A stretch of DNA of 47,101 nucleotides from Candidatus Saccharibacteria bacterium HGW-Saccharibacteria-1. GTDB lineage: Bacteria; Patescibacteriota; Saccharimonadia; Saccharimonadales; Saccharimonadaceae. Below are positions 12,293-47,101 of this stretch, in pieces. The stretch is from positions 121,259 to 168,359 of the forward strand of contig PGXZ01000001.1 in the NCBI GenBank assembly GCA_002839415.1, written 5' to 3'. The notes under the pieces were generated by a model. That model was not told the DNA's origin. It ran no database searches and saw only the letters and a list, made by a program, of their open reading frames with translations. Made by a program: the position numbers and the translations under genes. Every line of letters starts with the position of its first letter. Position 1 is the first letter of the stretch.

Positions 12293-14727
12293 AATTTAAT
12301 TATCGAAGTGCTCGTAGTGACAAAGCTAGGATTGGTGCTAAATTCGATAAAAAGATAGTCATATCGCTAACGATTTTTGCGGTTTTGTTGTCAATTGGGG
12401 GTGTGGCACTGGTAGTTTTTAAATTTCCATTTGGATGGGCATTGGTTGGTCTGTCGGCCATCCCGGCGATAATTGTTGAATGGTACAAGGGCGAACTGTA
12501 TCATTTATCTGTTTCAAAAGATTTTAAATCAATCGACGATATTTTGTCGGGTGAAGTACTGGGACGACTTTCAAAAGATCCAACCCCTAAGCAACTTGCG
12601 GGTATAATTGGCACATTGCCTGGAGGACATTTTTTTGCGGTTAGATTTGGCATATCGTCAAATTTCTTGCAGGAGTTATCGTCCGAGAACAAAGATGATA
12701 TAAATGCCGTATGGCAAGAGGCGATAAAACTTAGGCAATTAACTGATGGTAAAAATATATCGGCTGTAATACTGGTTGTTGCGCTTTTAAAATGTTCGGC
12801 TAATTGCCAACTTTTGTTAAGCCATTTACAGCTTGATATTGATGATTTAATTCGCGGTATCGAGTGGTATGATCATTTGCGCGATTTGATTGATCAGCAC
12901 AAGGCACCGATGCGAACAGGCGGCATCGCCCGTGATTGGTCATTTGGCTGGACACCGTATCTCAGTCGTTTTGGTCAAAATATTAGTCAGCAAATTGGCG
13001 TTAACGGCGCGTTACTTATTCGATTGGCTGCGCACGATGATTCGTTGGGCCAGTTAATGAATATTTTTAGTAAAAATGGTCGGCAGAATGCGGTATTGGT
13101 TGGCCCTGCTGGTGTCGGCAAGACCGAAATCGTACATGCTTTTGCCTCTAAATTACTTGACGCCTCGGCTAATCTGTCAAAAAATTTACAATTTAGACAA
13201 GTATTTATGCTAGATGCTTCGACGTTAATCGCGGCTGCGCCCGGACGAGGCCAGTTGGAACAATTGTTGCCGCGAATTTTAGGCGAGGCATATAGTGCAA
13301 AGAATATTATTATTTGTTTAGATAATGCGCAACTATTTTTCGAGGACGGTATTGGATCGGTTGATATATCGAATGTTTTGTTGCCGATACTTGAGGCTGG
13401 TAACTTGCGGATGATTTTAACGATGGACGAACAACGGTACTTGCAAATCAGTCAAAGGAATCCGGCAATTGTTAATGCCCTTAATAGAATCTCGATTGCG
13501 CCGGTAAATCGGGCTGAAACTTTGGCTGTAATACAGGATCGCTCAATTTTAATTGAATTTCAACACAAGGTTACATTCATGTATCAATCGCTAGTAGAGG
13601 CTTATCGTTTGGGAGACAGATATGTTCACGAACTTGCAATGCCAGGCAAAGCAATAAAATTATTAGAATCAGCTGCTAATTATAGTCAAAACGGTTTAGT
13701 AACCGCCGAATCGGTCCGTCAATCAATCGAGAAAACCTTGGATATTAAAGTTGGTGTGGCAACAGACGAGGTCGAGCGCGAGAAATTGCTTAATCTTGAG
13801 GAACTAATTCATTCACGTATGATTAATCAAACCAGAGCAGTTAAGGTTGTATCTGATGCCCTACGTCGGGCAAGGGCCGGGGTGAGGAATCAAAACCGTC
13901 CAATAGGTACTTTCTTGTTTTTGGGTCCAACTGGTGTTGGCAAGACCGAGCTGGCTAAGGCGCTAGCGAGTATTTATTTTGGTGGTGAAGACAGGATTAT
14001 TCGTATGGACATGAACGAATACGTCAATAGCGACGACGTGTCGAGGTTAATTGCCGACGGAGCTGACAATATCAACAGCTTGACGGCGCGTGTGATGAAG
14101 CAACCCTTTAGTGTTATATTGTTGGATGAAATTGAAAAAGCCCACACTAATGTACTGTCGACTTTGTTGCAAATGTTGGACGAGGGGATATTACGTGATG
14201 TAAAAAATCGTGAAGTTAGTTTTCGCGATGCGATTATTATTGCTACCAGCAATGCTGGATCGGATAGAATTCGTGAATATATTGAACGTGGCTATGATAT
14301 AGAACAATTTGAAAGCCAATTTACTGACGAGTTAATTAACACAAATCAATTCCGGCCGGAATTTTTAAATCGATTTGATGAAATAGTTGTATTTAGGCCA
14401 CTAAATAAACCTGAATTATTACAGGTAGTTGATTTGATGTTAAATAGTGTGAACAAAACTTTGTCGCTGCAAAAGATTAGCGTCGAGGTTGACGCTGACG
14501 CAAAAGAATATTTGGTTCACGCGGGTTATGACCCTCGGCTTGGTGCGCGTCCAATGCGACGTGTGGTTCAAAGAGCGGTCGAAAATACTGTGGCTAAACA
14601 AATGTTAAGTGGCAGTGTGATGCCAGGTAGTGTTATAAAAATCAGTCTTGAACAGGTACGGCAAATTCTTGATTCAAAAGCCGACGCTCAGGCAATTATT
14701 GATAATAATCTTTCAAAAACTAGCTAG
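12280..14727 (+). CDS. membrane-anchored ClpA/ClpC-like double-AAA+ ATPase
   Basis: 815 aa. Two adjacent membrane helices (about 25-47 and 52-66) precede a Clp-N-like segment (about 100-200), AAA1 with Walker A GPAGVGKTE (275-283), and AAA2 with Walker A GPTGVGKTE (about 549-557), Walker B LLDEIEKAH (about 614-622) and the C-terminal arginine-finger region LGARPMRR. The AAA1 Walker B reads ICLDNAQLF, with Asn replacing the catalytic Glu, so AAA1 may bind but not hydrolyse ATP. There is no long coiled-coil M domain and no obvious IGF/VGF ClpP-docking tripeptide. It likely unfolds or remodels proteins at the membrane; whether it feeds ClpP is open. Confidence 0.9.
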   Translation: MDSLKFNYRSARSDKARIGAKFDKKIVISLTIFAVLLSIGGVALVVFKFPFGWALVGLSAIPAIIVEWYKGELYHLSVSKDFKSIDDILSGEVLGRLSKDPTPKQLAGIIGTLPGGHFFAVRFGISSNFLQELSSENKDDINAVWQEAIKLRQLTDGKNISAVILVVALLKCSANCQLLLSHLQLDIDDLIRGIEWYDHLRDLIDQHKAPMRTGGIARDWSFGWTPYLSRFGQNISQQIGVNGALLIRLAAHDDSLGQLMNIFSKNGRQNAVLVGPAGVGKTEIVHAFASKLLDASANLSKNLQFRQVFMLDASTLIAAAPGRGQLEQLLPRILGEAYSAKNIIICLDNAQLFFEDGIGSVDISNVLLPILEAGNLRMILTMDEQRYLQISQRNPAIVNALNRISIAPVNRAETLAVIQDRSILIEFQHKVTFMYQSLVEAYRLGDRYVHELAMPGKAIKLLESAANYSQNGLVTAESVRQSIEKTLDIKVGVATDEVEREKLLNLEELIHSRMINQTRAVKVVSDALRRARAGVRNQNRPIGTFLFLGPTGVGKTELAKALASIYFGGEDRIIRMDMNEYVNSDDVSRLIADGADNINSLTARVMKQPFSVILLDEIEKAHTNVLSTLLQMLDEGILRDVKNREVSFRDAIIIATSNAGSDRIREYIERGYDIEQFESQFTDELINTNQFRPEFLNRFDEIVVFRPLNKPELLQVVDLMLNSVNKTLSLQKISVEVDADAKEYLVHAGYDPRLGARPMRRVVQRAVENTVAKQMLSGSVMPGSVIKISLEQVRQILDSKADAQAIIDNNLSKTS

Positions 14728-14738
14728 GTTTTTAAAGT

Positions 14739-15380
14739 TCACTTTATTTTTAAGCCAAGCTCACTAGCGAGATATGGTGCTAGTTGTATCAATTGCTCAT
14801 AGCTAATTGTTATGCCCTTTAGACAACCGGCGCCTTTTATATTGCTGAGTTTAGAGTTTGATAGATCGATATTTTTCATAAATGCGTTAGCAAAGTTTAC
14901 GTTATCGATAGTACAACCTATAAATTCGATATTCTTAAGTTTTGAATTATAAAAATCTAGGTCGTCAATCATACAATCTTCAAATATAATATTTTCTAAT
15001 ATTGAAAATCTGAAATTGACAATCTCTAGTTTTGAATTTTTAATCGTAACGTTTTTAAGACCGCTATTTTGAAAATCAGCGCCACACATTCTGGACGAAT
15101 CGATTGAAGTAATATGCCAATTAGAACTGGGAAACTGGCTACCTGAAAAATCACAACTTTTAAATTCGCAGTCGATAATTTCTAATTTTTCACAAAATAT
15201 TCTTGAGAAATCACTTTTCGATACGGTCGAGTCGGATAGTTTTATGTCTTTTAATTTAAGCCCTGACAAATTAGCATCATTTATAGACACTTCATAAATT
15301 GTTTCTTCATTTAGAAATAAATTAGTTGCGTCGTCAATAGCCTTCAGGTCTCTTTTGATAGTTGGTTTGAGTGTTTTCAC
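14739..15380 (-). CDS. pentapeptide-repeat-like protein
   Basis: 213 aa. From about residue 35 onward the sequence cycles in five-residue steps with L/F/I at the central position (ANLSGLKLKDI, CDFSGSQFPS, ADFQNSGLKNVTIKNSKLEI, IDFYNSKLKNIEF, VNFANAFMKNIDL), the pattern of a right-handed quadrilateral beta-helix. Some members protect gyrase from toxins or quinolones; most have no known role. The start is a GTG; the upstream ATG is out of frame and soon stopped. A TATGAT hexamer lies just upstream. Gene tail-to-tail with the Clp ATPase gene, 11 nt apart. Confidence 0.82.
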   Translation of the reverse strand: MKTLKPTIKRDLKAIDDATNLFLNEETIYEVSINDANLSGLKLKDIKLSDSTVSKSDFSRIFCEKLEIIDCEFKSCDFSGSQFPSSNWHITSIDSSRMCGADFQNSGLKNVTIKNSKLEIVNFRFSILENIIFEDCMIDDLDFYNSKLKNIEFIGCTIDNVNFANAFMKNIDLSNSKLSNIKGAGCLKGITISYEQLIQLAPYLASELGLKIK

Positions 15381-15450
15381 AGACTAATCATATCAGATTT
15401 ATATAAACTAATTCCTTAAATATATTGCGATTGGCTAACATAACATAAAT

Positions 15451-15930
15451 TTAATCTTCGTTAGACAAGATTTTGTTTTCAAAAAACTCAATTTTACGTC
15501 TCTCATATTCTGCGTAGGGTACACCGTCGCATTCAATTTTTAATTTTTTGTATTCTTCTTTTAGCATATTATTGTTTTTTAGATTTTCAAATACTTTTTG
15601 TTGAATTGGCACATGTGAAGTTTTTGGATCTGATAATATTAGGTCAATTTCAAAACCATTTAGCTCATAATTCCAAGCTGTCAAATCATTATTTATTTCT
15701 TTCGGCATACCAAGAATTGGAATCAATTTTTCGCGGTAGTATTCAATATCTTTATGGTCACACAAGATATCTAAATCGATATCGTTTTTGCCGGGCAACT
15801 CAAGTGCGGCTGCGCCCATAAACAATACCTCAAGTTCAGGTACGACCGATTTTATAGTTTTTATTAAATTTTCAGCGACGTTTTTAACTTCTGGTGCCCA
15901 TGGCTCAAGTTTGAATATCTTTTCTGTCAT
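15451..15930 (-). CDS. GrpB-family (UPF0157) nucleotidyltransferase-fold protein
   Basis: 159 aa. It matches the GrpB architecture: LEPWAPEV near the N-terminus, then the nucleotidyltransferase-like core MGAAALELPGKNDIDLDILC (about 38-57, with the G-[A]-x(n)-D-x-D pattern), FEIDLILSDPK and a charged helical C-terminus. GrpB proteins are related to the minimal nucleotidyltransferase fold but lack an established reaction. Accessory gene with its own start; no convincing RBS. Confidence 0.85.
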   Translation of the reverse strand: MTEKIFKLEPWAPEVKNVAENLIKTIKSVVPELEVLFMGAAALELPGKNDIDLDILCDHKDIEYYREKLIPILGMPKEINNDLTAWNYELNGFEIDLILSDPKTSHVPIQQKVFENLKNNNMLKEEYKKLKIECDGVPYAEYERRKIEFFENKILSNED

Positions 15931-16011
15931 AAGTCTAAGTTTAGCTGCTCGTATGGTAAATGGGTGTTTTAGGGAAGATATTGAGTGTAAAAATTTGAAC
16001 CAATAAAAACG

Positions 16012-16071
16012 TTGATTGTCTTTGCTACTGTGTGATACTATATAGATGTAATAAGTGGTACTTAGTACTAA
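16012..16071 (+). promoter_or_regulatory. promoter and palindromic operator of padR-DUF1048
   Basis: TTGATT (16012-16017), 18-nt spacer, TACTAT (16036-16041). Downstream, TTAGTACTAA (16062-16071) is a perfect 10-bp palindrome within the likely 5' leader. PadR regulators usually bind short palindromes near their own promoter, so this is a candidate autoregulatory site. Confidence 0.55.
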
Positions 16072-16085
16072 AGCAAAGAAAGGGG

Positions 16086-16412
16086 ATGAATTTGGAAAAT
16101 ATCACAGAAATGTTAAAAGGAGTGTTAGAAGGTTGTGTTATGGAAATAATCAGCCGCGATAAGACATATGGTTATGAAATTACACAACAATTGCGTGAAC
16201 TTGGTTTTTCTGAAGTAGTCGAGGGGACTGTTTATACTATTTTGGTTAGGCTTGAAAAAAGAAATTCTGTGAACATTGAGAAAAAACAATCCGACATGGG
16301 GCCGCCACGAAAATTTTATTCGCTAACAAAAGATGGGCGCAGAGAATTAAATCGCTTCTGGTCAAAGTGGGCTTTTGTGTCATCGAAAATAAATCAATTA
16401 AAGGAGGGTTGA
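16086..16412 (+). CDS. PadR-family transcriptional regulator
   Basis: About 108 aa: LKGVLEGCVMEIISRDKTYG, YEITQQLRELGF, a winged helix with EGTVYTILVRLEKRN and a wing ending GPPRKFYSLTKDGRRELNRF are diagnostic of PadR. PadR proteins are dimeric repressors often released by small molecules, commonly controlling a neighbouring efflux or membrane gene. The ATG at 16086 abuts an AAAGGGG Shine-Dalgarno too closely; an in-frame TTG at 16092 has ideal spacing and could be the real start. Translation is coupled to the DUF1048 gene (stop TGA, one base, then GTG). Confidence 0.93.
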   Translation: MNLENITEMLKGVLEGCVMEIISRDKTYGYEITQQLRELGFSEVVEGTVYTILVRLEKRNSVNIEKKQSDMGPPRKFYSLTKDGRRELNRFWSKWAFVSSKINQLKEG

Positions 16413-16413
16413 A

Positions 16414-16752
16414 GTGAGTAGTGTGATAGAAAAAATACTAGGGGATATGAATGGTAAGCGTGAATGGAGATCATTGGAAAAGCGCGCTAAGGTGCTACCA
16501 CATGACTATAAAGTTGCATACGATGAAATCAAACAATATATATGGAAAAGCTCGGGCGTTAGTACAATAGATGTCTTTAAATTTTTGCTTGATATGTTCG
16601 AGGAGGGTGCTGCAAGTAACAAAAAAGTCTTGGATATTACCGGTAGCGATGTAGCAGCTTTTTGTGATGAATTAGTACGCGGCGAGCAGTCGTATTTCGA
16701 AGATTGTCGCAAGAAATTAAATAAAAATATTGCGAAGAAACTTGACAAATAA
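16414..16752 (+). CDS. DUF1048-family protein, PadR partner
   Basis: 112 aa. Characteristic DUF1048 features: EWRSLEKRAKVLPHDYKVAY, IKQYIW, FKFLLDMFEEGAASNKKVLD and ITGSDVAAFCDELVRGE. The family is small, helical and soluble, very commonly encoded immediately after a padR gene; its biochemical role is not established. Start is GTG at 16414, one base after the padR stop, with an AGGAGG-like RBS at the end of padR. The pair looks like a self-contained regulatory cassette. Confidence 0.9.
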   Translation: MSSVIEKILGDMNGKREWRSLEKRAKVLPHDYKVAYDEIKQYIWKSSGVSTIDVFKFLLDMFEEGAASNKKVLDITGSDVAAFCDELVRGEQSYFEDCRKKLNKNIAKKLDK

Positions 16753-16790
16753 ACACATATAACAGAGTGGAATTATCTTGTTGCGGCCTG

Positions 16791-16796
16791 TAAAAT
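16791..16796 (+). promoter_or_regulatory. -10 element (TAAAAT), leaderless start
   Basis: TAAAAT lies 6 nt before the ATG at 16803 with no RBS in between. Confidence 0.5.
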
Positions 16797-16802
16797 AGGT
16801 AT

Positions 16803-17333
16803 ATGAACTTAATTTTTATTTATGGTCCACCCGCTGTCGGTAAATTAACAGTCGCCGAAGAGTTAGCAAAAATAACCAATTATCGCGTGTTTCACAATCA
16901 CTTAACGCAGGATTTAGCTAGCGAAATTTATCCAGATTTTTGTAAAAATAAATTTAAACTTGCGGAAGCAATTCGCCTTGAAGTGTTTGAATTTGCAGCT
17001 AAAAATAACACTAATTTAATCTTTACGCATGTTTATGCCAGTGGCGATGATGACGATATGTTCGTTGGTAGTCTGATTGATATTATTAAAAAATATAGCG
17101 GTTCAATATATTTTGTGCAACTAACTGCGCCGAGGGGTGTACTGTATAGCAGGGTCGGAAACGAATCACGAAAGAGGTTTAAAAAAGCTCATGATAGGGA
17201 AACGTTAGAATGGAAACTGGACGAGTTTGAACTTGAGGGCGCATTAGATTTAGATAACGCTATGGTAATCGATACCTCTTTGCAGGACGCTGATTTATCA
17301 GCAAGACAAATCGTTGAATATTTTAAACTTTAA
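16803..17333 (+). CDS. P-loop kinase-like protein (AAA_33/shikimate-kinase-like)
   Basis: 176 aa. Walker A is at the extreme N-terminus: IYGPPAVGKLTVAEELAK (about 6-23). It is followed by NHLTQDLASEIYPDF, a hydrophobic strand NLIFTHVYASGDDDD, a strand IYFVQLTAPRGVLYSRV, and a lid-like SRKRFKKAHD. This order matches small nucleotide/metabolite kinases of the zeta-toxin/CPT/shikimate kinase class. The substrate cannot be told from sequence. Starts on a probable leaderless transcript; converges on the DNPH1-like gene 7 nt away. Confidence 0.75.
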   Translation: MNLIFIYGPPAVGKLTVAEELAKITNYRVFHNHLTQDLASEIYPDFCKNKFKLAEAIRLEVFEFAAKNNTNLIFTHVYASGDDDDMFVGSLIDIIKKYSGSIYFVQLTAPRGVLYSRVGNESRKRFKKAHDRETLEWKLDEFELEGALDLDNAMVIDTSLQDADLSARQIVEYFKL

Positions 17334-17340
17334 TAGTTGT

Positions 17341-17757
17341 TTAATTATGATTGTTTATAAAAATATCAATCGCGTTTTTCGCTTCTTTTAAATTGTTATA
17401 ATAAACAACTCCTGTTTTAGGCGAACCTTCTATCATGGCTGATAAACGACTACCACCCTTTGGCTGATAGAGTGCTAAGATGGGTTTACCTAATTCTTCG
17501 GCTTTGGCTATTTCATAACCTACTCCCAGACTTGGGTTGGTTACTTCTGCGATAATTGCATCAGCCTCTTTTATCCAATTCATATCAGTTTGCCAAATTT
17601 GGTTATTTGGCTCGTTCATGCCTTGGGATGTTAGTTTTGAGTCGGCAAAAATCTCTGTTAACAAAGTTGATTTTGATTTTATATACACAGCCAGCTCGGC
17701 GTATATTTCAGCGTCATTACGTCCACCGCGAATTGAACAAGCAAAGTATATTTTCAT
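17341..17757 (-). CDS. 2'-deoxynucleoside 5'-phosphate N-hydrolase-like protein (DNPH1/Rcl)
   Basis: 138 aa. The sequence follows mammalian Rcl/DNPH1 closely: IYFACSIRGGRND, TDMNWIKEADAIIAEVTNPS, LGVGYEIAKAEELGKPILAL and LSAMIEG. Active-site residues line up with the rat numbering spacing: Tyr4, Asp58, Ser76, Glu82 (nucleophile) and Ser106. The expected reaction is hydrolysis of the N-glycosidic bond of deoxynucleoside 5'-monophosphates to base and deoxyribose 5-phosphate, useful in nucleotide sanitation or scavenging. TATAAT sits 6 nt before the ATG (leaderless). Confidence 0.88.
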   Translation of the reverse strand: MKIYFACSIRGGRNDAEIYAELAVYIKSKSTLLTEIFADSKLTSQGMNEPNNQIWQTDMNWIKEADAIIAEVTNPSLGVGYEIAKAEELGKPILALYQPKGGSRLSAMIEGSPKTGVVYYNNLKEAKNAIDIFINNHN

Positions 17758-17763
17758 TAGTTA

Positions 17764-17769
17764 ATTATA
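17764..17769 (-). promoter_or_regulatory. -10 element (TATAAT), leaderless start
   Basis: A perfect TATAAT on the minus strand, 6 nt before the ATG of the DNPH1-like gene; no Shine-Dalgarno. Confidence 0.65.
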
Positions 17770-17812
17770 ACAAATATTATTATTAACAAAAGCAACTGAC
17801 GGACATTCAATA

Positions 17813-18670
17813 TCATTGTGATTTCTTTGACAGCGACTTGGCTTGTGCGCGCCAAAACAAAATCCAAACAATCAAAGTTAATATCCATACAATATAATTT
17901 TCAACTGCCATGGATTCCATTGAAGGTCTTTCGTCGAGATACTGTGATAGACCAGCAATAAATGGCGATAATACGAATAAGGCTATATAGGCTACTGATA
18001 TTGATATAGCCGACCATGTTAATTTAGTAAATACGTTCAGTTTACTATTTCTTAGTGTGGCGTATGATACCATCCCAATTAGCGCAGTAATAATCAATGT
18101 CGCGAACGAGTATATATTCACACTTTGCGTGAATATGCTATTAGCCAATGACCAAACTGGCAGTAGAACGATAAATCCAATAAGCAGTATACTATATGGC
18201 TCGTACTCAAGAATATCGTGTTTCGCTTGATAGCTTCGTACATGAGAAATAGCGACAATAGACGTAATAATGGCCACAGCAATACTTGGTATAAAATTAA
18301 CTAATATTATTCTCACCGTCAATGATGACGCAAAATATTCAGTTGGAATTAGCACAACCGTTGAAAATATGGACATTATCCAGAATGCTAACAGGCCTAA
18401 AAGCATCCCATTAAAATGATGACTCATTTTGCTCTTGGATTTTACGAAGTGATTGCCAACTATATACGCCAGGAGAGCTGGAAGAAGCGTACCTACGGTA
18501 AGTGAGGTCATAATTAAGACGACATTATAGTGCAGTGTACGTGGATCAAATAACATTCTTCCGTACGGGATAGTGGTTGAGAATAGTACTCCAATGATTA
18601 GCAATGCAAATAAAATACAACCAAATGCTACAAGTGGAGATTGTGGGTTTACTATTCTTGTTTTTGCCAT
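17813..18670 (-). CDS. polytopic membrane protein of unknown function
   Basis: 285 aa with about 8 predicted membrane segments (for example VAFGCILFALLIIGVLF near residue 14, NVVLIMTSLTVGTLLPALLA, GMLLGLLAFWIMSIFSTVVL, and a C-terminal YIVWILTLIVWILFW). Cytoplasmic Lys-rich C-terminus (AKSLSKKSQ). No transport or enzymatic motif is recognisable. TATACT lies 10 nt before the ATG. Monocistronic. Confidence 0.75.
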   Translation of the reverse strand: MAKTRIVNPQSPLVAFGCILFALLIIGVLFSTTIPYGRMLFDPRTLHYNVVLIMTSLTVGTLLPALLAYIVGNHFVKSKSKMSHHFNGMLLGLLAFWIMSIFSTVVLIPTEYFASSLTVRIILVNFIPSIAVAIITSIVAISHVRSYQAKHDILEYEPYSILLIGFIVLLPVWSLANSIFTQSVNIYSFATLIITALIGMVSYATLRNSKLNVFTKLTWSAISISVAYIALFVLSPFIAGLSQYLDERPSMESMAVENYIVWILTLIVWILFWRAQAKSLSKKSQ

Positions 18671-19083
18671 ACTATTTACTAGTATACGTAGAATATAAGC
18701 AAAAGCAACTTGTTAATATGGGTTATTTTATAAATAATTTCTACGTGTGGCTTGATTTTGACATAGTGCGATTGCCAAGGTTAGAAAAAGCCTTGGTTTA
18801 ATTTGTATGCTGCCAACATATTTAAAAAATAAAGATGATATTCTATAGTCTGTTATAATTTGCCTAAATGAACGATGCGGTAGGGGCGCTGTTTTTAATT
18901 TATTATAGATAAATAGGGTTCCAGACAAAGGCATGAAAGAAAAAATAGATGTTATATTGAATTGTGATTTTGAAATTATTCTTGATGATTTTGGGCAGGG
19001 TGTTTTAGGCTTATAGTTATTTTGGTAAAATGTAAGTTTAAATATATTTATTATTCTAAGATAGGTTATGGTTAAATGGTTGT
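18671..19083. other. 413-bp gap with hairpin and short leaderless-type ORFs
   Basis: No convincing gene. It contains a hairpin (CCAAGG/CCTTGG, 18775-18796, loop 10 nt) followed by a T-rich stretch, then TATAAT (18854-18859) placed 8 nt before an ATG opening a 14-codon frame (18868-18912), and a 27-codon frame (18933-19016, MKEKIDVIL...) in a different phase. These may be a decayed gene, tiny peptides or chance. Confidence 0.35.
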
Positions 19084-19395
19084 ATGGCAAATTTAAACCA
19101 TTCTCTGTATGTAAAAAATAAAAGCAAAAATAAAATTATATCAAAATTTGATAAATTTATTTTTATTGCTTCATTTATAGCGCCTTTAAACGGAATTCCG
19201 CAGGTTATTGATGTATTTCATGGAAATACAAACGGTGTATCTTTGTTTTCGTGGTTGGGTTTTATGGTTTTCTCGTCTATGTTTTTTATTTATGGATTAA
19301 TTCATAAAATTAAGCCAATGATAATTACAAATTTGTTATATGCAATTATCGACGGTTTGATTGTTTTAGGTTTGATATTATCAAAAATAAGCTAG
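19084..19395 (+). CDS. SemiSWEET-type (PQ-loop/MtN3) transporter
   Basis: 103 aa. Three membrane helices with the PQ-loop signature: IASFIAPLNGIPQVIDVFHGNTNGVSLFSW in helix 1 and loop, then FMVFSSMFFIYGLI and NLLYAIIDGLIVLGLIL. SemiSWEETs dimerise into a facilitative sugar pore. The N-terminal 25-residue polar extension is longer than usual; two upstream ATGs (19068, 19075) are out of frame. Sugar uptake would suit an organism dependent on scavenged carbohydrate. Confidence 0.85.
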   Translation: MANLNHSLYVKNKSKNKIISKFDKFIFIASFIAPLNGIPQVIDVFHGNTNGVSLFSWLGFMVFSSMFFIYGLIHKIKPMIITNLLYAIIDGLIVLGLILSKIS

Positions 19396-19452
19396 CGTTA
19401 ACATTGATCACGCTATGTTTTTTGACTGAGAGGTAATTTGATTCTTGACTTA

Positions 19453-19485
19453 ATTACTTTACTTTAGTAAAGTAATTTATATAAT
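19453..19485 (+). promoter_or_regulatory. operator palindrome and -10 element upstream of TrpR-like gene
   Basis: An 11-bp perfect inverted repeat, ATTACTTTACT / AGTAAAGTAAT, with a 2-bp centre occupies 19453-19476 and covers the natural -35 position; TATAAT follows at 19480-19485. TrpR-family operators have an ACT-N-AGT core, which this palindrome contains, so autoregulation by the adjacent gene is likely. A TTGACT at 19445 is too far for a standard -35; TTTACT inside the palindrome is a better one. Confidence 0.75.
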
Positions 19486-19810
19486 GAATTCAACAGATAA
19501 AGCATGGACTACGAATGCGTCTATGCAATTAGCCCGTACAATAACTGACATTACTGATATACAAGTCATGCAAGACTTTTTGCGTGACGTGATGACTGAA
19601 AAAGAAATTATAGAAATTTCGATGCGACTGGAGGCGGCACGAATGTTGAGCAAAGGTTATAAATACAAAGAAATAATCAGTAAAACAAAACTAAGTAGCC
19701 GAACGGTTGCTCGCATAAGTGAATGGCTGCAAAACGGCACTAATGGTTACTCTGAAGTCCTAAGCCAAGTAAATAATCATCATGACCATATTCCGCCAGC
19801 TCGTGACTGA
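19484..19810 (+). CDS. TrpR-like regulator, YerC/YecD family
   Basis: 108 aa. The TrpR-fold signature is clear: VMTEKEIIEISMRLEAARML followed by SKGYKYKEIISKTKLSSRTVARISEWL (helix-turn-helix) and NGTNGYSEVL. YerC/YecD proteins are TrpR homologues of mostly unknown ligand. The ATG at 19484 overlaps the TATAAT hexamer, so either another -10 is used or translation starts at the in-frame ATG 19523 (95 aa, closer to family length). It lies directly upstream of the VanX-DapF fusion gene, separated by a perfect palindromic terminator. Confidence 0.88.
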   Translation: MNSTDKAWTTNASMQLARTITDITDIQVMQDFLRDVMTEKEIIEISMRLEAARMLSKGYKYKEIISKTKLSSRTVARISEWLQNGTNGYSEVLSQVNNHHDHIPPARD

Positions 19811-19831
19811 CAGTGTGCCTATTTAATAGTC

Positions 19832-19859
19832 AAAATGCCAGCTACGTAGCTGGCATTTT
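19832..19859 (+). terminator. perfect 28-bp palindrome, probable terminator of TrpR-like gene
   Basis: Two 14-nt half-sites, AAAATGCCAGCTAC and GTAGCTGGCATTTT, are exact reverse complements with no spacer, ending in TTTTAAAAT. Its position 22 nt after the TrpR-like gene and before the next RBS fits an intrinsic terminator or attenuator; being perfectly symmetric it could also bind a protein dimer. Confidence 0.75.
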
Positions 19860-19888
19860 AAAATATATCATTTTACGAAAGGACTGTT

Positions 19889-21331
19889 ATGGAAAAATAT
19901 CAAATACAAACTTACGATGACATTATAAGGGTATCGGTCGGCAAATCCAAAGAAGCTTTGGTTGATGTTTGCACTTATGATGAGTCTATTTTATCTGAAT
20001 ATGAAAATAACGACATGCTACCTTATGCAGGACAAATTATATTAGTCAGGCGTACACTCGCAAAAAAATTAGCCCGTATAAATAAATATCTCAAAGAAGA
20101 GTATCGATTAAAGCTTAAGGTGGTTTATGGCTATCGACACCCCGAGATTCAGATGCGATATTTTCAAGATAATCGAAGCGTTTTAGCGAAAAAATTCAAT
20201 AATCTGAACGACACGGAACTTAATGCACTTACTCATAATTTAATAGCTATACCAGAGATTGCTGGTCACCCAGTTGGAGGGGCGGTTGATTTGACATTGG
20301 TCGATATTAACGACGTAGAATGCGATATGGGCACTAGAATAGCTGATTTTTCAGATAGCGACAGAATACGAACATTTTGTCGAAATATTACTGATGATCA
20401 GTTGATGAATCGACGAATATTATTAGAAGCCATGACGAATGAAAACTTCGCCCCATTTTATGGTGAATGGTGGCACTTTTCGTATGGTGATCGCGAATGG
20501 GCTGCGTTTTATGGTAAGGCTTCAGCAATTTATGGAACGGTAGATTTGGCACCGATCGAAAAACCAGATACTATATCGCTTATAACATCTGCAGGCGGCA
20601 ATGGTACGGCAATTCAATTGATTGACCGGCCTTGGGAGCGATATGAATATGAAGCAGCAGGCAAGGCACTCGTTAGCTCACTCGAAGTTTACGGAGCTGA
20701 ACAAGCCGGTTTTTTAATTGCTGATATTTCTCACTTTGAGATGGCGGGTGGTGAATTCTGTGGGAATGCTACGTGCGCTGCGGCTTTGATCTTATCAAAA
20801 CTAAGCAATCAGCCAATAGTTAACTTTTCTGTTTCGGGAATGAATGTGACTGTCAGCTCACAGATTAACGAGTTATCGATCGGCGCTTATCGGGTTATAA
20901 GTAAATTTGCAAACATTGACTATATGTTGAGCAAGGGTTGTCTGTCAGACGGTGGTTTAGTTGATATAGTTGATTTTGGCGGCATCGTCCACATAATAAT
21001 ACGGGCTGCTTTTCCAGCTTCGGCAGACGAACGTCGTCGCGTTCATGAATCGGTCATTAAGGAGTTTGGTTTTGCCGCAAAAGATGCTGTTGGTGTTATT
21101 TGGTTTAATCAAATCGAAAAAATAGTAGCAATCAACCCGGTTGTATGGGTTAAATCGGTCAATTCATTTTGTTATGAATCATCTTGCGGGTCAGGTTCGA
21201 TAGCGGTTGCACTAATAACAAACCGGCGGGTTATCAGACAGCCAACTGGTGAAACTATAAAGGTGGGTGTTGATAATAATCAAATATCTCTTGAAACCAT
21301 GATGAAATTTGTCGAATATGCAAAAAAATAA
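19889..21331 (+). CDS. fusion of VanX-like D-Ala-D-Ala dipeptidase and DapF-like racemase/epimerase
   Basis: 480 aa, two enzymes in one chain. Residues about 25-215: M15D (VanX/DdpX) dipeptidase with zinc ligands His127 and Asp134 in GHPVGGAVDLTL and the catalytic Glu193/ligand His196 in GEWWHFSYGDREW. Residues about 228-480: diaminopimelate-epimerase fold with both catalytic Cys, Cys291 in GGEFCGNATC and Cys433 in SSCGSGSIAVA; this variant motif is closer to DapF-like amino acid racemases (for example histidine racemase CntK) than to canonical DapF. It could hydrolyse D,D-dipeptides and racemise the released amino acid. RBS AAAGGA supports the start. Controlled possibly by the upstream TrpR-like regulator. 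Confidence 0.88.
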   Translation: MEKYQIQTYDDIIRVSVGKSKEALVDVCTYDESILSEYENNDMLPYAGQIILVRRTLAKKLARINKYLKEEYRLKLKVVYGYRHPEIQMRYFQDNRSVLAKKFNNLNDTELNALTHNLIAIPEIAGHPVGGAVDLTLVDINDVECDMGTRIADFSDSDRIRTFCRNITDDQLMNRRILLEAMTNENFAPFYGEWWHFSYGDREWAAFYGKASAIYGTVDLAPIEKPDTISLITSAGGNGTAIQLIDRPWERYEYEAAGKALVSSLEVYGAEQAGFLIADISHFEMAGGEFCGNATCAAALILSKLSNQPIVNFSVSGMNVTVSSQINELSIGAYRVISKFANIDYMLSKGCLSDGGLVDIVDFGGIVHIIIRAAFPASADERRRVHESVIKEFGFAAKDAVGVIWFNQIEKIVAINPVVWVKSVNSFCYESSCGSGSIAVALITNRRVIRQPTGETIKVGVDNNQISLETMMKFVEYAKK

Positions 21332-26666: not shown

Positions 26667-27119
26667 CTAGTAAACGTAGGTTGATCCGGAAGTCGCCGTA
26701 CCTACATAAACATATTTAATACCTGGGGTTCCGCTTGGGTCCCAGTATGCAAATCTTAATCCTGTAATGTTTTTCGCTGTATCTCCGGCGCTACAGCTCG
26801 CGGCTGCTGTTACACAGGAAAGTGCCACCTGGGAAAATGTAGTATCCCATCCTGCTATAACGGGCGTTGAAGCTGCATCTGCGACTATAACTGTTCCTGC
26901 AGGAAGTTTAGCTGTTGCACCCGCGTGAAATGTTGCGTTAGTGCCAGGATAGTAATTATTTTCTGCGAAGAAAGTTTCAGCCGTGGATTGAGCTGATTTT
27001 GCAGCGCTTTGAGCTTTTGATGCGTTTGCCTTAGCTGTAATACCAGTATAAGAAACGATAGTAATAGCTGCCAATATACCGATAACTACGATAACGACTA
27101 GAAGCTCAACGATTGTAAA
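26667..27119 (-). CDS. type IV pilin-like copy A, lacking a start codon and the -1 glycine
   Basis: Reading from the conserved +1 Phe (27119) the product is FTIVELLVVIVVIGILAAIT and so on, about 150 aa, with a variable globular part (NYYPGTNATF, GLRFAYWDPSGTPGIKYVYVG). However, upstream in frame are only ATT, CTA, TCA and then a stop (27129-27131): no ATG/GTG/TTG and no Gly at -1, so a normal prepilin cannot be made. The only usual start (TTG 27074) would cut the pilin helix in half. The first 100 nt are identical to copy B. Possible silent donor cassette, non-canonical start or decayed gene. Confidence 0.7.
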   Translation of the reverse strand, partial: FTIVELLVVIVVIGILAAITIVSYTGITAKANASKAQSAAKSAQSTAETFFAENNYYPGTNATFHAGATAKLPAGTVIVADAASTPVIAGWDTTFSQVALSCVTAAASCSAGDTAKNITGLRFAYWDPSGTPGIKYVYVGTATSGSTYVY

Positions 27120-27120
27120 A
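27021..27120 (-). repeat. 100-bp exact direct repeat, pilin 5' segment, copy A
   Basis: Identical base for base to 27606-27705. It covers codons +1 to about +33 of the pilin. Upstream both copies also share AAGCATAATCAC (minus strand), but copy A has four extra bases (TAAT) between this and the repeat. Confidence 0.95.
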
Positions 27121-27197
27121 ATTAGTGATTATGCTTATTATATTACTATGTCGTATGAATTATTGCAATATGACAATTTAGCAGTGAACTGTATCAA

Positions 27198-27254: not shown

Positions 27255-27704
27255 TTATGAACAGGTCGGTGTTGATAATGTAAAGTTTGCAGTTGTTGCA
27301 TTTCCAACAAACACATATTTAAGACCTGGAGTAGGGTTGTTGCTAAAGTCGTAATATGCAATACAGCCACCGGTCGTGCCTTTAGCTAAGTAAGATACAT
27401 AGGCAAGCCCATTGTTAACCCCGGTTGTTGCATTTGTTGGTACGTTTTGAGCTGCTGCAACTACAGTTATACCTGTTGGTACTTTTGCTGTGCCTGTAGT
27501 ATACCCCATGATAGCTGCCGCGTCCGCTGGATAAACATTAGAACCTTCAGCATTAAAGATCTCAACGACATTTTGTACAGATTGTGCATTACTTAACGCC
27601 TTTGTTGCGTTTGCCTTAGCTGTAATACCAGTATAAGAAACGATAGTAATAGCTGCCAATATACCGATAACTACGATAACGACTAGAAGCTCAACGATTG
27701 TAAA
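27255..27704 (-). CDS. type IV pilin-like copy B, lacking a start codon and the -1 glycine
   Basis: Same conserved N-terminal helix as copy A from +1 Phe (27704), about 149 aa, then a different variable region (EIFNAEGSNVYPADAAA, GCIAYYDFSNNPTPGLKYVFVG). In-frame upstream codons are ACT, ATC, ATA, AGC, AAA, ATT, TAT, then TAG (27726-27728): again no standard start, and Thr instead of Gly at -1. A TATATT hexamer lies about 6 nt upstream of the ATA codon, so a leaderless AUA start is imaginable here but would be out of frame in copy A. It follows three intact minor pilin genes. Confidence 0.7.
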   Translation of the reverse strand, partial: FTIVELLVVIVVIGILAAITIVSYTGITAKANATKALSNAQSVQNVVEIFNAEGSNVYPADAAAIMGYTTGTAKVPTGITVVAAAQNVPTNATTGVNNGLAYVSYLAKGTTGGCIAYYDFSNNPTPGLKYVFVGNATTANFTLSTPTCS

Positions 27705-27705
27705 A
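27606..27705 (-). repeat. 100-bp exact direct repeat, pilin 5' segment, copy B
   Basis: Identical to 27021-27120. Beyond it, on both sides, the two copies diverge, so the identity is restricted to the constant helix region, as expected of gene conversion or a recent partial duplication. Confidence 0.95.
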
Positions 27706-27762
27706 GTGATTATGCTTTTAATATACTATTTTAGCTAAATATAAGCAAGTGGATCAAGCGTT

Positions 27763-42521: not shown

Positions 42522-43349
42522 ATGAAATTATTAGATGGACTAGAATTATCTGGTTATATAAAAGAGCGACAACTCAAACAGTCGCGCGCGCTTCGTCAAT
42601 CGTGGCGAGTAGTTCCGCGCATAGCGATTATTTACACAGGTAACGATCCTGTAATCAACACCTATATGCGCCTTAAGAGCGAGTATGGTAAGGATATTAT
42701 GGTCGAAGTTGATATTTATAATCCATCTGTAGCTGAATTGTTAAACCAGATAAAATCATTGAATAATGACGAAAATGTTCACGGAATAATTGTTCAACTG
42801 CCACTTGCAGACATTTCGCAAACCGAAGAGGCTATTGCCGCTATCAGTGAAGAAAAAGACGTAGATGGCTTGAGGGGTGGATTGGATTTTATCCCAGCTA
42901 CGGCTATGGCGATTGATTGGCTTCTAGCGGGCTATAATGTTAATTTATCTGGCAAGAAAATTGCAATTGTTGGCAACGGTCGTTTGGTTGGCGCTCCATT
43001 GTCAAATTTATGGACAAAGGCTGGTTTAGATGTGTCGGTTTATGACATCAACACAAACAATCTGGCAGATGAAATTAAATCATCAGAAATTATTGTTACT
43101 GCAACTGGCAATCCCAACTTAATCAATAGTGAAATGATAAGTCCGAAATCTGTCGTGGTTGATGCCGGAACGGCCTCTGAGCATGGCAAAATTGTTGGTG
43201 ATTTAGCAGCTGATGTTCGCCAGAGGCAAGATTTAACTATTACACCAGAAAAGGGCGGTGTTGGTCCACTGACTGTTGCGGCGTTGTTTGATAACGTACT
43301 GCTCGCCGCGCGAAAAGTGGCTGATAAAAAAGGTCAACAGGATATTTAA
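42522..43349 (+). CDS. folD: bifunctional methylenetetrahydrofolate dehydrogenase/cyclohydrolase
   Basis: 275 aa. Tyr48 and Lys52 of the catalytic motif (INTYMRLKSEYGKDI), GIIVQLPLADI, EKDVDGL, Rossmann NADP site IVGNGRLVGAPLSNL, TATGNPNLI and the C-terminal GGVGPLTVAALFDNVL are present. It interconverts 5,10-methylene-THF and 10-formyl-THF. Odd points: the usual PCTP segment is replaced by IPATAMA, and VGxSxxVGxP by VGNGRLVGAP, so the nucleotide/folate pocket is divergent. Its last 4 nt overlap the convergent response regulator gene. Confidence 0.94.
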   Translation: MKLLDGLELSGYIKERQLKQSRALRQSWRVVPRIAIIYTGNDPVINTYMRLKSEYGKDIMVEVDIYNPSVAELLNQIKSLNNDENVHGIIVQLPLADISQTEEAIAAISEEKDVDGLRGGLDFIPATAMAIDWLLAGYNVNLSGKKIAIVGNGRLVGAPLSNLWTKAGLDVSVYDINTNNLADEIKSSEIIVTATGNPNLINSEMISPKSVVVDAGTASEHGKIVGDLAADVRQRQDLTITPEKGGVGPLTVAALFDNVLLAARKVADKKGQQDI

Positions 43350-43717
43350 ATTAAATTCAAAGCTTCTTTGACGCGTTGGGCAACTTGTCGCGGCGTTAAG
43401 TTGGCTTTAACGATATAGCTATGTATGCCGAGTGAGCGGAGTTTTTTTGGAGCTTCCTCTTCGCCGAGGTTAGTAAGGATTATAACTGGTGTATTTTTAC
43501 CCCATTCATTTTGTCGGATAATTTCGAGAGCCTCAACACCATTCATTTCTGGCATTTGAAGGTCTAATAGTATAATATCTGGCGTAAAAGCCTCGACTAG
43601 TTCAACGCCATACTTGCCATTATTTGCCAGTTGCACATCAAAGCCGTCTGCCTCAAATTTCATGCGATACATTTGGCTGATAACTTGGTCGTCTTCGATT
43701 ATAGCAATTTTTGTCAT
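43346..43717 (-). CDS. single-domain response regulator (CheY-like receiver)
   Basis: 123 aa, receiver domain only. Acidic pocket IIEDDQ (Asp9/Asp10), phosphoacceptor Asp in IILLDLQMPEMNG (about residue 52), Thr in VIILTNLG and Lys in SYIVKANLTP. No output domain, so it acts by protein contact. No kinase is adjacent; the nearest is the broken kinase at 45-47.1 kb. TATACA 6 nt before the ATG suggests a leaderless transcript. Confidence 0.95.
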   Translation of the reverse strand: MTKIAIIEDDQVISQMYRMKFEADGFDVQLANNGKYGVELVEAFTPDIILLDLQMPEMNGVEALEIIRQNEWGKNTPVIILTNLGEEEAPKKLRSLGIHSYIVKANLTPRQVAQRVKEALNLI

Positions 43718-43818: not shown

Positions 43819-44160
43819 ATGCTTGATTTAGCTCCGATGATTTATCGACAACGTCTCGTGATGGAGGCGTTTCCTAAAAAGGCCATTGCAGCCGATGAGA
43901 TCAAAGAATATCTCTCTGGTTTGTCTAAAGTAACTGACATGAACCAGCTAATAGAGCCTGTTACGCATTGTAGTGATATGTACGGTTGGGCTGGTTGGAT
44001 ACACTGGGAAACATCTGGTGCTCATTTTTATGCCTGGGAGCGTCCAATTTTGTTTTATAGTGTAGATGTCTATACTTGCAAAAAATTTGACCCACAGGTC
44101 GCCATTGAATACACAAGAAATTTCTTTAATAGCGATACGATTGAGTTCAAGGAGTTTTAG
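43819..44160 (+). CDS. SpeD-like (AdoMet decarboxylase family) pyruvoyl-type protein
   Basis: 113 aa, the length of prokaryotic SpeD. It aligns with class 1B AdoMet decarboxylase: self-cleavage segment HWETSGAHFYAWER in place of ESHISIHTWPE, so Ser66 (future pyruvoyl) is kept but preceded by Thr rather than Glu, and the His after it is Gly. The following block FYSVDVYTCKKFDPQVAIEY retains catalytic Cys87 (cf. DVFTCG). SpeD homologues with altered pockets in CPR bacteria have been shown to be arginine or ornithine decarboxylases, so the substrate may not be AdoMet. RBS AGGTGAT before the ATG; the next gene starts 3 nt after the stop. Confidence 0.75.
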   Translation: MLDLAPMIYRQRLVMEAFPKKAIAADEIKEYLSGLSKVTDMNQLIEPVTHCSDMYGWAGWIHWETSGAHFYAWERPILFYSVDVYTCKKFDPQVAIEYTRNFFNSDTIEFKEF

Positions 44161-44162
44161 AG

Positions 44163-44963
44163 GTGGAGCGTGATTGCGGCAATTGTAATGAGATTGTAAA
44201 GCCGCAATACGACATATCAATTGATAATACCATTGATTTAACGGCAGAACTTTTACTTGAAAATTCTGAAAAAGCTTTGCATACCAAAGAAATTGTTATC
44301 GAGGTCGCCGGGGATAGTAAATTTGCTAATCTGGGTCGATATGTCGAGTCAGTGGTTTTTGAAAAATCTTTTGGAAATGATAGCGTAGAGATGGCTGAAG
44401 CTTATAAGGATTACGAGAAATCTAGCCGTTTCAATATCTGTATTGACACCGAATCGTCTAGGCCTATCGGCGCTATTAGAATTATAGAAAACGCGGATAG
44501 TGGCCTTAAAACATTAAATGACATATCGGATTCGCCATTTAATGTTGATATTGATGAATTTATCAAGCAGCGTAATATCGATGATTTAATTAAAGTTTGG
44601 GACGTGGGTACTGTTGCAGTTTTGCCAGAGTTTCAAAGCAGTGGGGCGAGTATTTTATTGTTTAGAGCAATGTACACCTCGGCCTTGAGGAATGGTATTG
44701 ACCATATAGTCTCGGTAATTGATGAAAAGCCGTTTAAATTGTTAACGAAATATTTCTCTGTCCCGTTTGTACCGATAATCGATGGCTTAGAGCCTTTGCC
44801 GTATATGGGATCAAATAAAAGCCACGCTGTTTATGGCTATGTGCCGAGATTTTTTGACGAAATGAGCAAAAGTAACAGTCGCATTAGCAATAAATTCTCA
44901 AAAATCTTTAACACCTTGGTTATGGGTGATGATGATAATTTAATAGTTCCATTGCAAAAATAA
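44163..44963 (+). CDS. GNAT-fold acyltransferase resembling autoinducer synthases (LuxI-like)
   Basis: 266 aa. After a 40-residue N-terminal extension with CGNC, the order of elements matches the GNAT fold as in LuxI/PEP-CTERM-associated acyltransferases: RYVESVVFEKSF, DYEKSSRFNICIDTESSRPIGAIRII, then VWDVGTVAVLPEFQSSGASILLFRAMYTSA, NGIDHIVSVIDEKPFKLL. The acyl-CoA/ACP-binding loop is not the standard Q/RxxGxG/A of typical acetyltransferases but FQSSGAS. GTG start with AAGGAG 8 nt upstream, 2 nt after the SpeD-like gene: an obvious functional pair. I infer N-acylation of the decarboxylation product; LuxI resemblance is by eye. Confidence 0.72.
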   Translation: MERDCGNCNEIVKPQYDISIDNTIDLTAELLLENSEKALHTKEIVIEVAGDSKFANLGRYVESVVFEKSFGNDSVEMAEAYKDYEKSSRFNICIDTESSRPIGAIRIIENADSGLKTLNDISDSPFNVDIDEFIKQRNIDDLIKVWDVGTVAVLPEFQSSGASILLFRAMYTSALRNGIDHIVSVIDEKPFKLLTKYFSVPFVPIIDGLEPLPYMGSNKSHAVYGYVPRFFDEMSKSNSRISNKFSKIFNTLVMGDDDNLIVPLQK

Positions 44964-45001: not shown

Positions 45002-46411
45002 ATGGAAAGCATTATTCTAGTTATTACGTGCTTCGTAAACCTAGCCTTGGGTTTATTTATATTGCTTCATGATCCTAGGGCTAAATTTGCTCAAATATTC
45101 GCCGTGATGAGCTTTTTTATTTGTGTTTGGACTTTTGTAAACTACGCCACAAACAGCTATGCTGGTAATCTTCATTTAAACGACGTGGCCAATAAACTAG
45201 CTTATGTTAGTGGCTATGGTGTTGTTTTTTTTGGTTTACTATTTACTTATTATTTCCCAATAAGACGCAAATTTTCTAGATTAGAAATTATTATATTAAC
45301 AATAACTAGCTTGTCGTTAGCCATCTTGTCCTGCACCAGTCTAGTATCGGGTGAAGTGATTTTATTAAATGATGGTACGCTGCAGTTTTCGATTGGCCCG
45401 TTAATTAGTGTTTATATATATGGTTTTCTTATACTAATAGTACTTATAGCTAAAAATTTAATTAAGGCTTCAAGGGATCTTGATCACGATCACAAGATGC
45501 AGGCTAATTTGGTTTCGGTGGCTTTTTGCATTAGTGCCTTTGGGGGGTTATTTCTGAATGTCTTGATTCCACTGGCTTTAAACAACTGGAGCTTGACTAT
45601 GTTTGGTCCGCTCACAACAATCGTCCTAGTTGTTGTAATTGTTTATGCGATTATCAGACATGGGCTGTTTGATATAAGGTTGGCGTTGGTTCGTACATTT
45701 GCTTATGTTCTTTCCTTAACTGTATTTGTGGTAGGTTACTATTTATTGGCGTACTTATTGTCGATCCTAGTGCTTGGCTCTAGTACTTTCTTTAATGAGC
45801 AAAATGGCTTGAGTATTGTAATTGCGCTAGTTTTAGCTTCTTTTTTTCAACCTGTCAAAAGATTATTTGACCGCTTAACTAATGCAATTTTCTATAAAGA
45901 TAATTATAACAGCGATGAGTTTTTTGCTCGTATTAACCGAATTGCAACTCAGACTACTGATCTTTACGATTTGATTAGAAGTTCGTCAGGTGAAATAGAA
46001 AAAACAATTAAACTTGAACAGGTTGTTTTTGCTATTATAAATGAGCAAAAAACTTTCTCGATAGGAACTGGCCATCATATCAGAATGCCTCACTCTGATG
46101 TTCTAAAATTAAAAGATTTTATTAGTAGTGATTCATATCGAATTGTCGAGGATGGCTTTATCGGAAGCGCTACTCTCGACCACCAAACCAAACGTCTCCT
46201 AATAAGCCACAAACTAGAACTAATAATTCCACTGACAGTCTCTAAAAAAATAGTCGGTATCTTGTGTCTTGGGTTTCCGATGAGTTATCTATTGCAATTC
46301 AAAATGCCCTTGCGATTCAAGAAATTCGCGACCTTAACGACAGCTTGCAACAAAAGATATCCAATGCCACCAAAGAGCTACGCGCCAGCAATGCTCAGCT
46401 GCAACGTCTAG
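45002..46411 (+). CDS. sensor histidine kinase, N-terminal part (7TM sensor plus GAF-like), frameshifted
   Basis: 469 codons to the first stop. Eight or so hydrophobic segments (residues about 1-270) form a histidine-kinase N-terminal 7TM-type sensor (LYVSGYG-like core: NKLAYVSGYGVVFFGLLF; IIRHGLFDIRLALVRTFAY), followed by a linker (FFQPVKRLFDRLTNAIFYKDNY) and a GAF-like domain ending at VSKKIVGILCLG. After that (about 46270) the sequence loses kinase character and runs to a stop. The kinase core continues in another frame. Base composition also flips inside this gene from about 46.1 kb. Either a true lesion or a mis-join. Confidence 0.8.
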   Translation: MESIILVITCFVNLALGLFILLHDPRAKFAQIFAVMSFFICVWTFVNYATNSYAGNLHLNDVANKLAYVSGYGVVFFGLLFTYYFPIRRKFSRLEIIILTITSLSLAILSCTSLVSGEVILLNDGTLQFSIGPLISVYIYGFLILIVLIAKNLIKASRDLDHDHKMQANLVSVAFCISAFGGLFLNVLIPLALNNWSLTMFGPLTTIVLVVVIVYAIIRHGLFDIRLALVRTFAYVLSLTVFVVGYYLLAYLLSILVLGSSTFFNEQNGLSIVIALVLASFFQPVKRLFDRLTNAIFYKDNYNSDEFFARINRIATQTTDLYDLIRSSSGEIEKTIKLEQVVFAIINEQKTFSIGTGHHIRMPHSDVLKLKDFISSDSYRIVEDGFIGSATLDHQTKRLLISHKLELIIPLTVSKKIVGILCLGFPMSYLLQFKMPLRFKKFATLTTACNKRYPMPPKSYAPAMLSCNV

Positions 46412-47100
46412 ACAAGGCAAAGGATGAATTTGTCAGTATGGCTAGTCACCAGCTCCGTACGCCCTTAACGACCGTCAAGGGCTATATAAGTATGGTAGTA
46501 GAAGGCGACGCCGGTGAAATCACTAGCGAACAACGCCGCCTACTTGATGAAGCCTTTATGAGTAGTGAACGTATGGTTAATTTAATTAACGACTTCCTTA
46601 ACGTCTCACGTATTCAAACAGGCAAGTTTTTAATAGACAAACACGAAACCAACCTTGGCGAACTTGTTAAGCAAGAAATCGATCGACTAAAATCAAATGC
46701 CGATTCGCGTAAATTAGAATTTATCTACAAAAAACCAAAAGATTTCCCAATCATGAACATTGACGAAGCTAAAATACGCGAAGTAGTAATGAACTTTGCC
46801 GACAACGCTCTTTATTATTCTCATGAAGGTGCAAAGATTGATGTTAAATTGCACGTTGATGAAAACAATCAAGCTATATTTGAAATCATTGACACCGGCA
46901 TCGGCGTATCCCTAGAAGACCAGTCAAGGCTCTTTACTAAATTCTATCGTGCCAGCAACGCTAAAAGACAAAGACCTGACGGCACTGGCGTAGGTCTCTT
47001 CCTAGCAAAAAAAGTCATCAGCGCTCACGGCGGCAAAGTACTATTCAGCTCAGTCGAAGGCAAGGGGAGTACTTTTGGGTTTAGTTTGCCAGTTGAATAA
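46264..47100 (+). CDS. histidine kinase C-terminal part (HisKA-HATPase), out of frame with its N-terminal half
   Basis: The open frame begins VSDELSIAIQNALAIQEIRDL (end of a GAF domain and signalling helix), then a coiled coil (LQQKISNATKELRASNAQLQ), HisKA with phosphoacceptor His62 in VSMASHQLRTPLTT, N-box NFADNALYYS, G1 DTGIGV, F box LFTKFYRA and G2 GTGVGLFLAKKVI. All catalytic boxes are intact. GTG 46264 is only the first possible start in this frame and not a credible one: the piece is the continuation of the gene at 45002. Relative to a normal GAF domain about 20 codons seem missing at the junction. Confidence 0.85.
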   Translation: MSWVSDELSIAIQNALAIQEIRDLNDSLQQKISNATKELRASNAQLQRLDKAKDEFVSMASHQLRTPLTTVKGYISMVVEGDAGEITSEQRRLLDEAFMSSERMVNLINDFLNVSRIQTGKFLIDKHETNLGELVKQEIDRLKSNADSRKLEFIYKKPKDFPIMNIDEAKIREVVMNFADNALYYSHEGAKIDVKLHVDENNQAIFEIIDTGIGVSLEDQSRLFTKFYRASNAKRQRPDGTGVGLFLAKKVISAHGGKVLFSSVEGKGSTFGFSLPVE

Positions 47101-47101
47101 T

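Follow-up and report, generated by a model that had tools for sequence, protein, structure and literature searches.

A strand-composition switch inside a Saccharibacteria histidine kinase gene lies at the edge of a repeat, at a putative site of enzyme and sensor cassette exchange

Introduction

Why should a single histidine kinase gene change its strand composition abruptly and break its reading frame within about 200 bp? The question is raised by the right end of the window, the whole stretch of 47,101 nucleotides analysed here (C27:121259-168359), whose right edge is the exact end of contig C27. The source is a Saccharibacteria genome (1.10 Mb, 30 contigs, 98.9% complete; coded G000 in our comparisons). 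A reading made from the sequence alone (hereafter the sequence-only reading) had proposed that two paralogous kinase genes from opposite replichores are joined there by an inversion endpoint, by proximity to the origin or terminus, or by an assembly chimera. Almost nothing is known about how these tiny epibiotic bacteria communicate, and a fixed exchange locus would naturally pair a sensor with the enzyme likely to make its signal.

The composition switch and the repeat

The plus strand is G/T-rich through most of the window and A/C-rich later, as the sequence-only reading had described, and its three hand counts were exact on recount. The switch is real, but it lies at 46174 and not at about 46.1 kb; it does last to the window end, yet it is confined to 928 bp, and the adjoining contigs C1 and C8 start again with leading-type composition. 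At position 46174 begins a direct repeat of 928 bp, R (46174-47101, plus strand), which is used by two kinases, A and B. The keto excess of R is -0.116. For windows of the same length along C27, all but 1.3 kb of which was covered, the mean is +0.070 (sd 0.058), and just 0.09% of them have so low a value. Synonymous codon usage in R is lagging-type (0 of 64 leading-strand genes are as lagging-like), while the sensor halves of kinases A and B have ordinary leading-type usage, as do the FeeM-like, LuxI-like and ThiF-like genes. Data-driven change points in third-codon composition, for which the repeat position was not used as input, fell at codon 386 (about 46159) in kinase A and at codon 394 in kinase B, which is C1 base 3130 and the exact repeat edge. 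A comparably strong change point was found in only one of 34 other kinases, that of G018 (L209, 3879-6182), at codon 225, close to where the membrane domain ends; this is another mosaic kinase, with a breakpoint different from that of kinase A.

We infer that R derived from a relative in which the locus lay on the other strand relative to replication. No such lagging-strand donor was found among the sampled congeners, in which the R-type orthologues are in leading orientation by local skew, nor was a donor found elsewhere in the genome itself, where other kinases match R at only 26-34%.

A search of the genome with 45002-47101 gave matches at four other places. The last 99 bp of C27 (47003-47101, plus strand) are identical to C1:1-99 and C8:1-99, and the last 99 bp of C1 (length 3228 bp; C1:3130-3228) are identical to 46174-46272. 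Since 97-99 bp are common to two ends at most contig ends of this genome, these overlaps are vertices of a k=99 assembly graph, and 47003-47101 is the vertex leading to C1 and C8. On C1 lie genes for a LuxI-like and a ThiF-like protein, together with the sensor half of kinase B, which enters R, so that kinase A on C27 and kinase B on C1 both run into the same 99-mer, 46174-46272. By graph logic, the simplest layout using all links is a tandem array C27-R-C1-R-C8, with R present in at least two copies and collapsed in the graph. The C8 side of this order is confirmed by synteny, because C8 begins with the DUF11 surface protein gene that adjoins the transmitter in relatives. The C1-R unit could alternatively be an excised circle. 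A kinase repeat has probably been collapsed in this way a second time in G008, where contigs C15 and C16 have their first 141 bp in common (L051:1-141, L052:1-141), inside 7TM kinase genes.

Genes of the locus

The constant left flank is folD (tetrahydrofolate dehydrogenase/cyclohydrolase; 42522-43349, plus strand; Pfam PF00763/PF02882), which lies beside the kinase locus in most congeners. The next constant part is a receiver-only response regulator gene (43346-43717, minus strand; PF00072), whose 123-aa product is 70-87% identical in congeners and has no output domain in Pfam. Cassette A follows on the plus strand. Its first gene encodes an AdoMet-decarboxylase-like protein (43819-44160; PF02675, 37.6 bits, cut-off 25) and also occurs, together with the sensor type of kinase A, in G026 and G013. 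The second encodes a FeeM-like GNAT protein resembling acyl-amino-acid/autoinducer synthases (44163-44963; PF21926, 22.2 bits, below the cut-off of 27), which is 41-44% identical to the homologues beside the kinases of G013 and G026. The first gene stands directly upstream of the FeeM-like synthase gene, and it is conceivable that the product of this pair (43819-44963) is made from decarboxylated AdoMet.

The sensor half of kinase A (45002-46173, plus strand) comprises a membrane domain and the first part of a GAF-like domain. It has no Pfam match and groups in the tree with other AdoMetDC/FeeM-linked sensors (support 100/99). The 7TM model PF16927 likewise gave no match to kinase A, and 23.0 bits for kinase B, below the cut-off of 28.6. 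R supplies the end of the GAF domain and the HisKA/HATPase transmitter common to the two putative 7TM kinases. The predicted transmitter half (46276-47097, plus strand), with a coiled coil, HisKA (PF00512, 62.4 bits) and HATPase_c (PF02518, 91.2 bits), is a secure assignment, both scores being above cut-off, and is 60-74% identical throughout the genus. Kinases A and B differ in their sensor halves and in their upstream enzymes, which are AdoMet-decarboxylase-like plus FeeM-like for A and LuxI-like plus ThiF-like for B.

The LuxI-like ORF (C1, 190-942) scores 29.7 bits with Autoind_synth (PF00765, cut-off 24); its predicted product is uncertain, because NCBIfam AHL-synthase models score far below their cut-offs. 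No LuxR-type cytoplasmic receptor gene adjoins it, its neighbours coding for the ThiF-like protein and the histidine kinase. In G067 a single protein of 547 aa combines a LuxI-like with a ThiF-like part (L202:4151-5794), which suggests that the two act in one pathway.

Enzyme and sensor variation among relatives

A strong R-type transmitter match, one per genome, was found in 27 of 28 genomes of the genus, and the locus order, where readable, is folD, response regulator (opposite strand), enzyme gene(s), kinase and DUF11 protein. The enzyme sets are diverse: an AdoMet-decarboxylase with a FeeM-like protein; a FeeM-like protein by itself; small GNAT/LuxI-like proteins; a LuxI-like with a ThiF-like protein, seen in C1 and outside the genus; polyprenyl synthase plus UbiA, with or without methyltransferases; other methyltransferases; and ligase-like plus ThiF-like. 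Pfam families among the cassette enzymes include Autoind_synth (above cut-off), ThiF, AdoMet_dc, polyprenyl_synt, UbiA and methyltransferases; the small GNAT/LuxI2 proteins owe their label to inspection by eye and to BLAST among themselves, the sole one scanned having no Pfam match. Some loci have no enzyme gene and a kinase without the membrane part. Such kinases, of about 430-460 aa and with no adjoining enzyme gene, occur in G016 (L059), G008 (L050:5303-6679), UBA2018 (L169) and G014 (L211), and the locus may thus exist in an empty state. G017 has an orphan sensor half of 321 aa without transmitter (L054:2722-3687), beside a second copy of the UbiA and methyltransferase genes, possibly a cassette leftover.

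Enzyme-kinase units with two R-type kinases stand in tandem at this locus in G227 (L197, a one-contig genome), G247 (L200) and Co129 (L170). The members of these pairs have different sensor halves, with N-terminal identity of 17-22% and C-terminal identity of 53-66%. In the tree the two transmitters of G247 are sister to each other, which suggests homogenisation.

Enzyme classes were assigned from neighbour genes before tree building, except that G001, whose contig ends at this point, was put in the FeeM group without its upstream genes in view. In the sensor-half tree (33 kinases), the five enzyme classes are accounted for by 4 changes, the minimum possible (class support 96-100), compared with 8 changes in the transmitter tree. 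In the transmitter tree, the AU test rejected monophyly of the GNAT/LuxI2 group (p = 3e-32) and a grouping of R with the LuxI/ThiF kinases found outside the genus (p = 5e-6). In the sensor tree it rejected monophyly of G022, G027 and G018 (p = 4e-5), and a sister relation of the two G000 sensors was rejected as well (p = 7e-5). These rejections argue that kinase B combines a transmitter of the type usual in the genus with a sensor that belongs with the LuxI/ThiF cassettes outside it.

DNA comparisons gave the same picture at the level of pairs. G022 and G018 share 84% identity across folD and the response regulator gene but have no detectable similarity over enzyme and sensor. Similarity returns 153 nt before the H-box, and from that point on, the DUF11 gene included, the two are 91% identical. 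The same pattern was found between G019 and G025, where similarity resumes 96 nt before the H-box, and between G022 and G027 it resumes at 78 nt. The repeat edge in G000, about 270 nt before the H-box, is near the congener breakpoints but not identical to them. Because the sensor tree follows enzyme class and close relatives lose similarity across enzyme and sensor, the enzyme genes and the sensor half appear to be exchanged as one block, with breakpoints inside the kinase gene.

A possible mechanism and function

The variable block of enzyme genes and sensor half sits between the constant response regulator gene and the constant transmitter half. Judging from the breakpoints, enzyme and sensor would be replaced together by homologous recombination, on one side within the conserved transmitter and on the other close to the response regulator gene. 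In G000 a second cassette would have been added and not substituted, leaving R on both sides, and recombination between the R copies could remove cassette B again. The enzymes would make a diffusible signal sensed by the adjoining putative 7TM half, a role suggested by gene neighbourhood, co-inheritance and enzyme families, and the two cassettes, with their identical transmitters, would both signal to the one response regulator. Saccharibacteria would then have one chromosomal socket in which signal-synthesis and sensor cassettes of different chemistry are recombined into a kinase gene with the same transmitter and response regulator; here two would stand in tandem, with two signals readable and a cassette losable or gainable through the repeats. 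We hold this socket reading with about even confidence.

The cassettes might instead be sensor modules for host- or environment-derived compounds, whose enzymes degrade or modify the ligand and make no signal. Saccharibacteria are known epibionts, and the mixture of enzyme families (methyltransferases, ThiF, UbiA) fits such a role. But LuxI/FeeM-type GNAT and prenyl synthases beside cognate sensors are typical of signal synthesis, and the LuxI-like genes score with autoinducer synthases, so we regard ligand modification as rather unlikely, though deserving some weight.

Signal synthesis by the cassettes invites comparison with ComQXPA of Bacillus, in which signal-synthesis gene(s) lie upstream of a multi-TM histidine kinase with a variable sensor half and a conserved transmitter, exchanged as a block. 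The Saccharibacteria locus resembles it in having the enzyme(s) upstream of the kinase, co-variation of enzyme and sensor half, a conserved transmitter, a breakpoint inside the kinase gene and apparent exchange of the unit, as in pherotype switching; prenyl enzymes even occur in some cassettes. It differs in that the enzyme class itself changes (GNAT, ThiF, prenyltransferase, methyltransferase), in that the response regulator is receiver-only and not a DNA-binding protein of the ComA type, and in that two cassettes can stand in tandem. In the agr and comCD loci of Gram-positive bacteria, signal and sensor half also co-vary at a fixed locus, as here; the signals there are peptides, whereas the Saccharibacteria cassettes carry small-molecule enzymes.

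A LuxI-family gene beside a sensor kinase in CPR genomes has a precedent: Bernard et al. (2020; PMC7567580), the one relevant earlier study found, gives 18 LuxI homologues adjoining sensory kinases. The passages of it consulted here mention neither exchange of enzyme and sensor at one locus nor a shared transmitter, and neither tandem cassettes nor other classes of enzyme. An exchangeable enzyme and sensor cassette was not found described in the literature searched, a body that leaves out most subscription journals. LuxI-kinase pairs in CPR are thus already known, and the exchangeable cassette appears to be new. The pairing of enzyme and sensor spans several chemical classes, which makes signal identity and sensor specificity directly testable.

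The frame break and other explanations of the join

The frame break reported near 46270 is present, between 46270 and 46276. The accompanying loss, put at roughly 20 GAF residues in the sequence-only reading, is real in the assembled sequence but amounts to 52 nt, about 17 residues, relative to congeners, which have 17 residues between an 'LCLG' motif and '(I/V)(A/S)DEL' that are missing here. The join lies on the plus strand between 46272 and 46273 and reads GG/GTT (the slash marks the join), both sides being in perfect family register, and contig C1 ends at precisely this base, 46272, a graph vertex.

If the 52-nt deletion and frameshift lay in the chromosome, kinase A would be an inactivated pseudogene, and the assembled sequence does contain the lesion. 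R is one collapsed sequence, so a real deletion would sit in both kinases; the join falls exactly at the end of the 99-bp overlap of C1, roughly a 1-in-900 position; the register is kept on either side; and the remainder of R has no decay. We therefore consider a real pseudogene improbable. Because a chance coincidence with the C1 end within 928 bp is unlikely, the loss and frameshift are, by family spacing and graph logic, probably an assembly artefact, and the real kinase genes are probably intact. A repeat-collapsed contig end can thus mask a real tandem array behind an apparent frameshift. In answer to the opening question, we think it quite probable that 46174 is the edge of R, a repeat of two tandem kinases, at a cassette-exchange site, and that the frame break is a loss at a graph vertex.

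The assembly might also have made the mosaic itself, with the true C-terminal half of kinase A lying elsewhere and R belonging only to kinase B. C27 does end in a repeat and has a faulty internal join, and to this extent the sequence-only reading was right that an assembly problem is involved. Kinase A nevertheless does enter R, because the C27 sequence leading up to R runs on into the common 99-mer; the genome has no other transmitter of R type, and an R-type transmitter stands at the same locus in nearly every congener. Since both upstream sequences enter the same 99-mer and tandem kinases occur in a one-contig genome, the mosaic was not created by assembly, and a pure chimera is very doubtful. 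The search of the genome for a second kinase with reciprocal halves found none; the second kinase has the same C-terminal half instead.

The join does bring together kinase pieces of different strand histories, but an inversion endpoint or replichore boundary near 46.1 kb, although the lagging-type codon usage of R and a weak overall GC skew in C8 could be taken to favour it, is hardly credible and was rejected on the skew of C27 and C1, as the switch spans only 928 bp, GC skew is positive in every 10-kb block of C27 and resumes with the same sign in C1 (+0.20, again G/T-rich), and the folD-response regulator-kinase-DUF11 order is conserved; an origin or terminus is set aside on the same skew.

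Two further features were seen near the locus or in the window. C8 carries a serine-recombinase-like gene and helicase/methylase/restriction-like genes (L007:4848-6566 and 13724-19999), possibly a genomic island. Within the window, 26995-27149 and 27580-27729 form a direct repeat of 155 bp with 90% identity.
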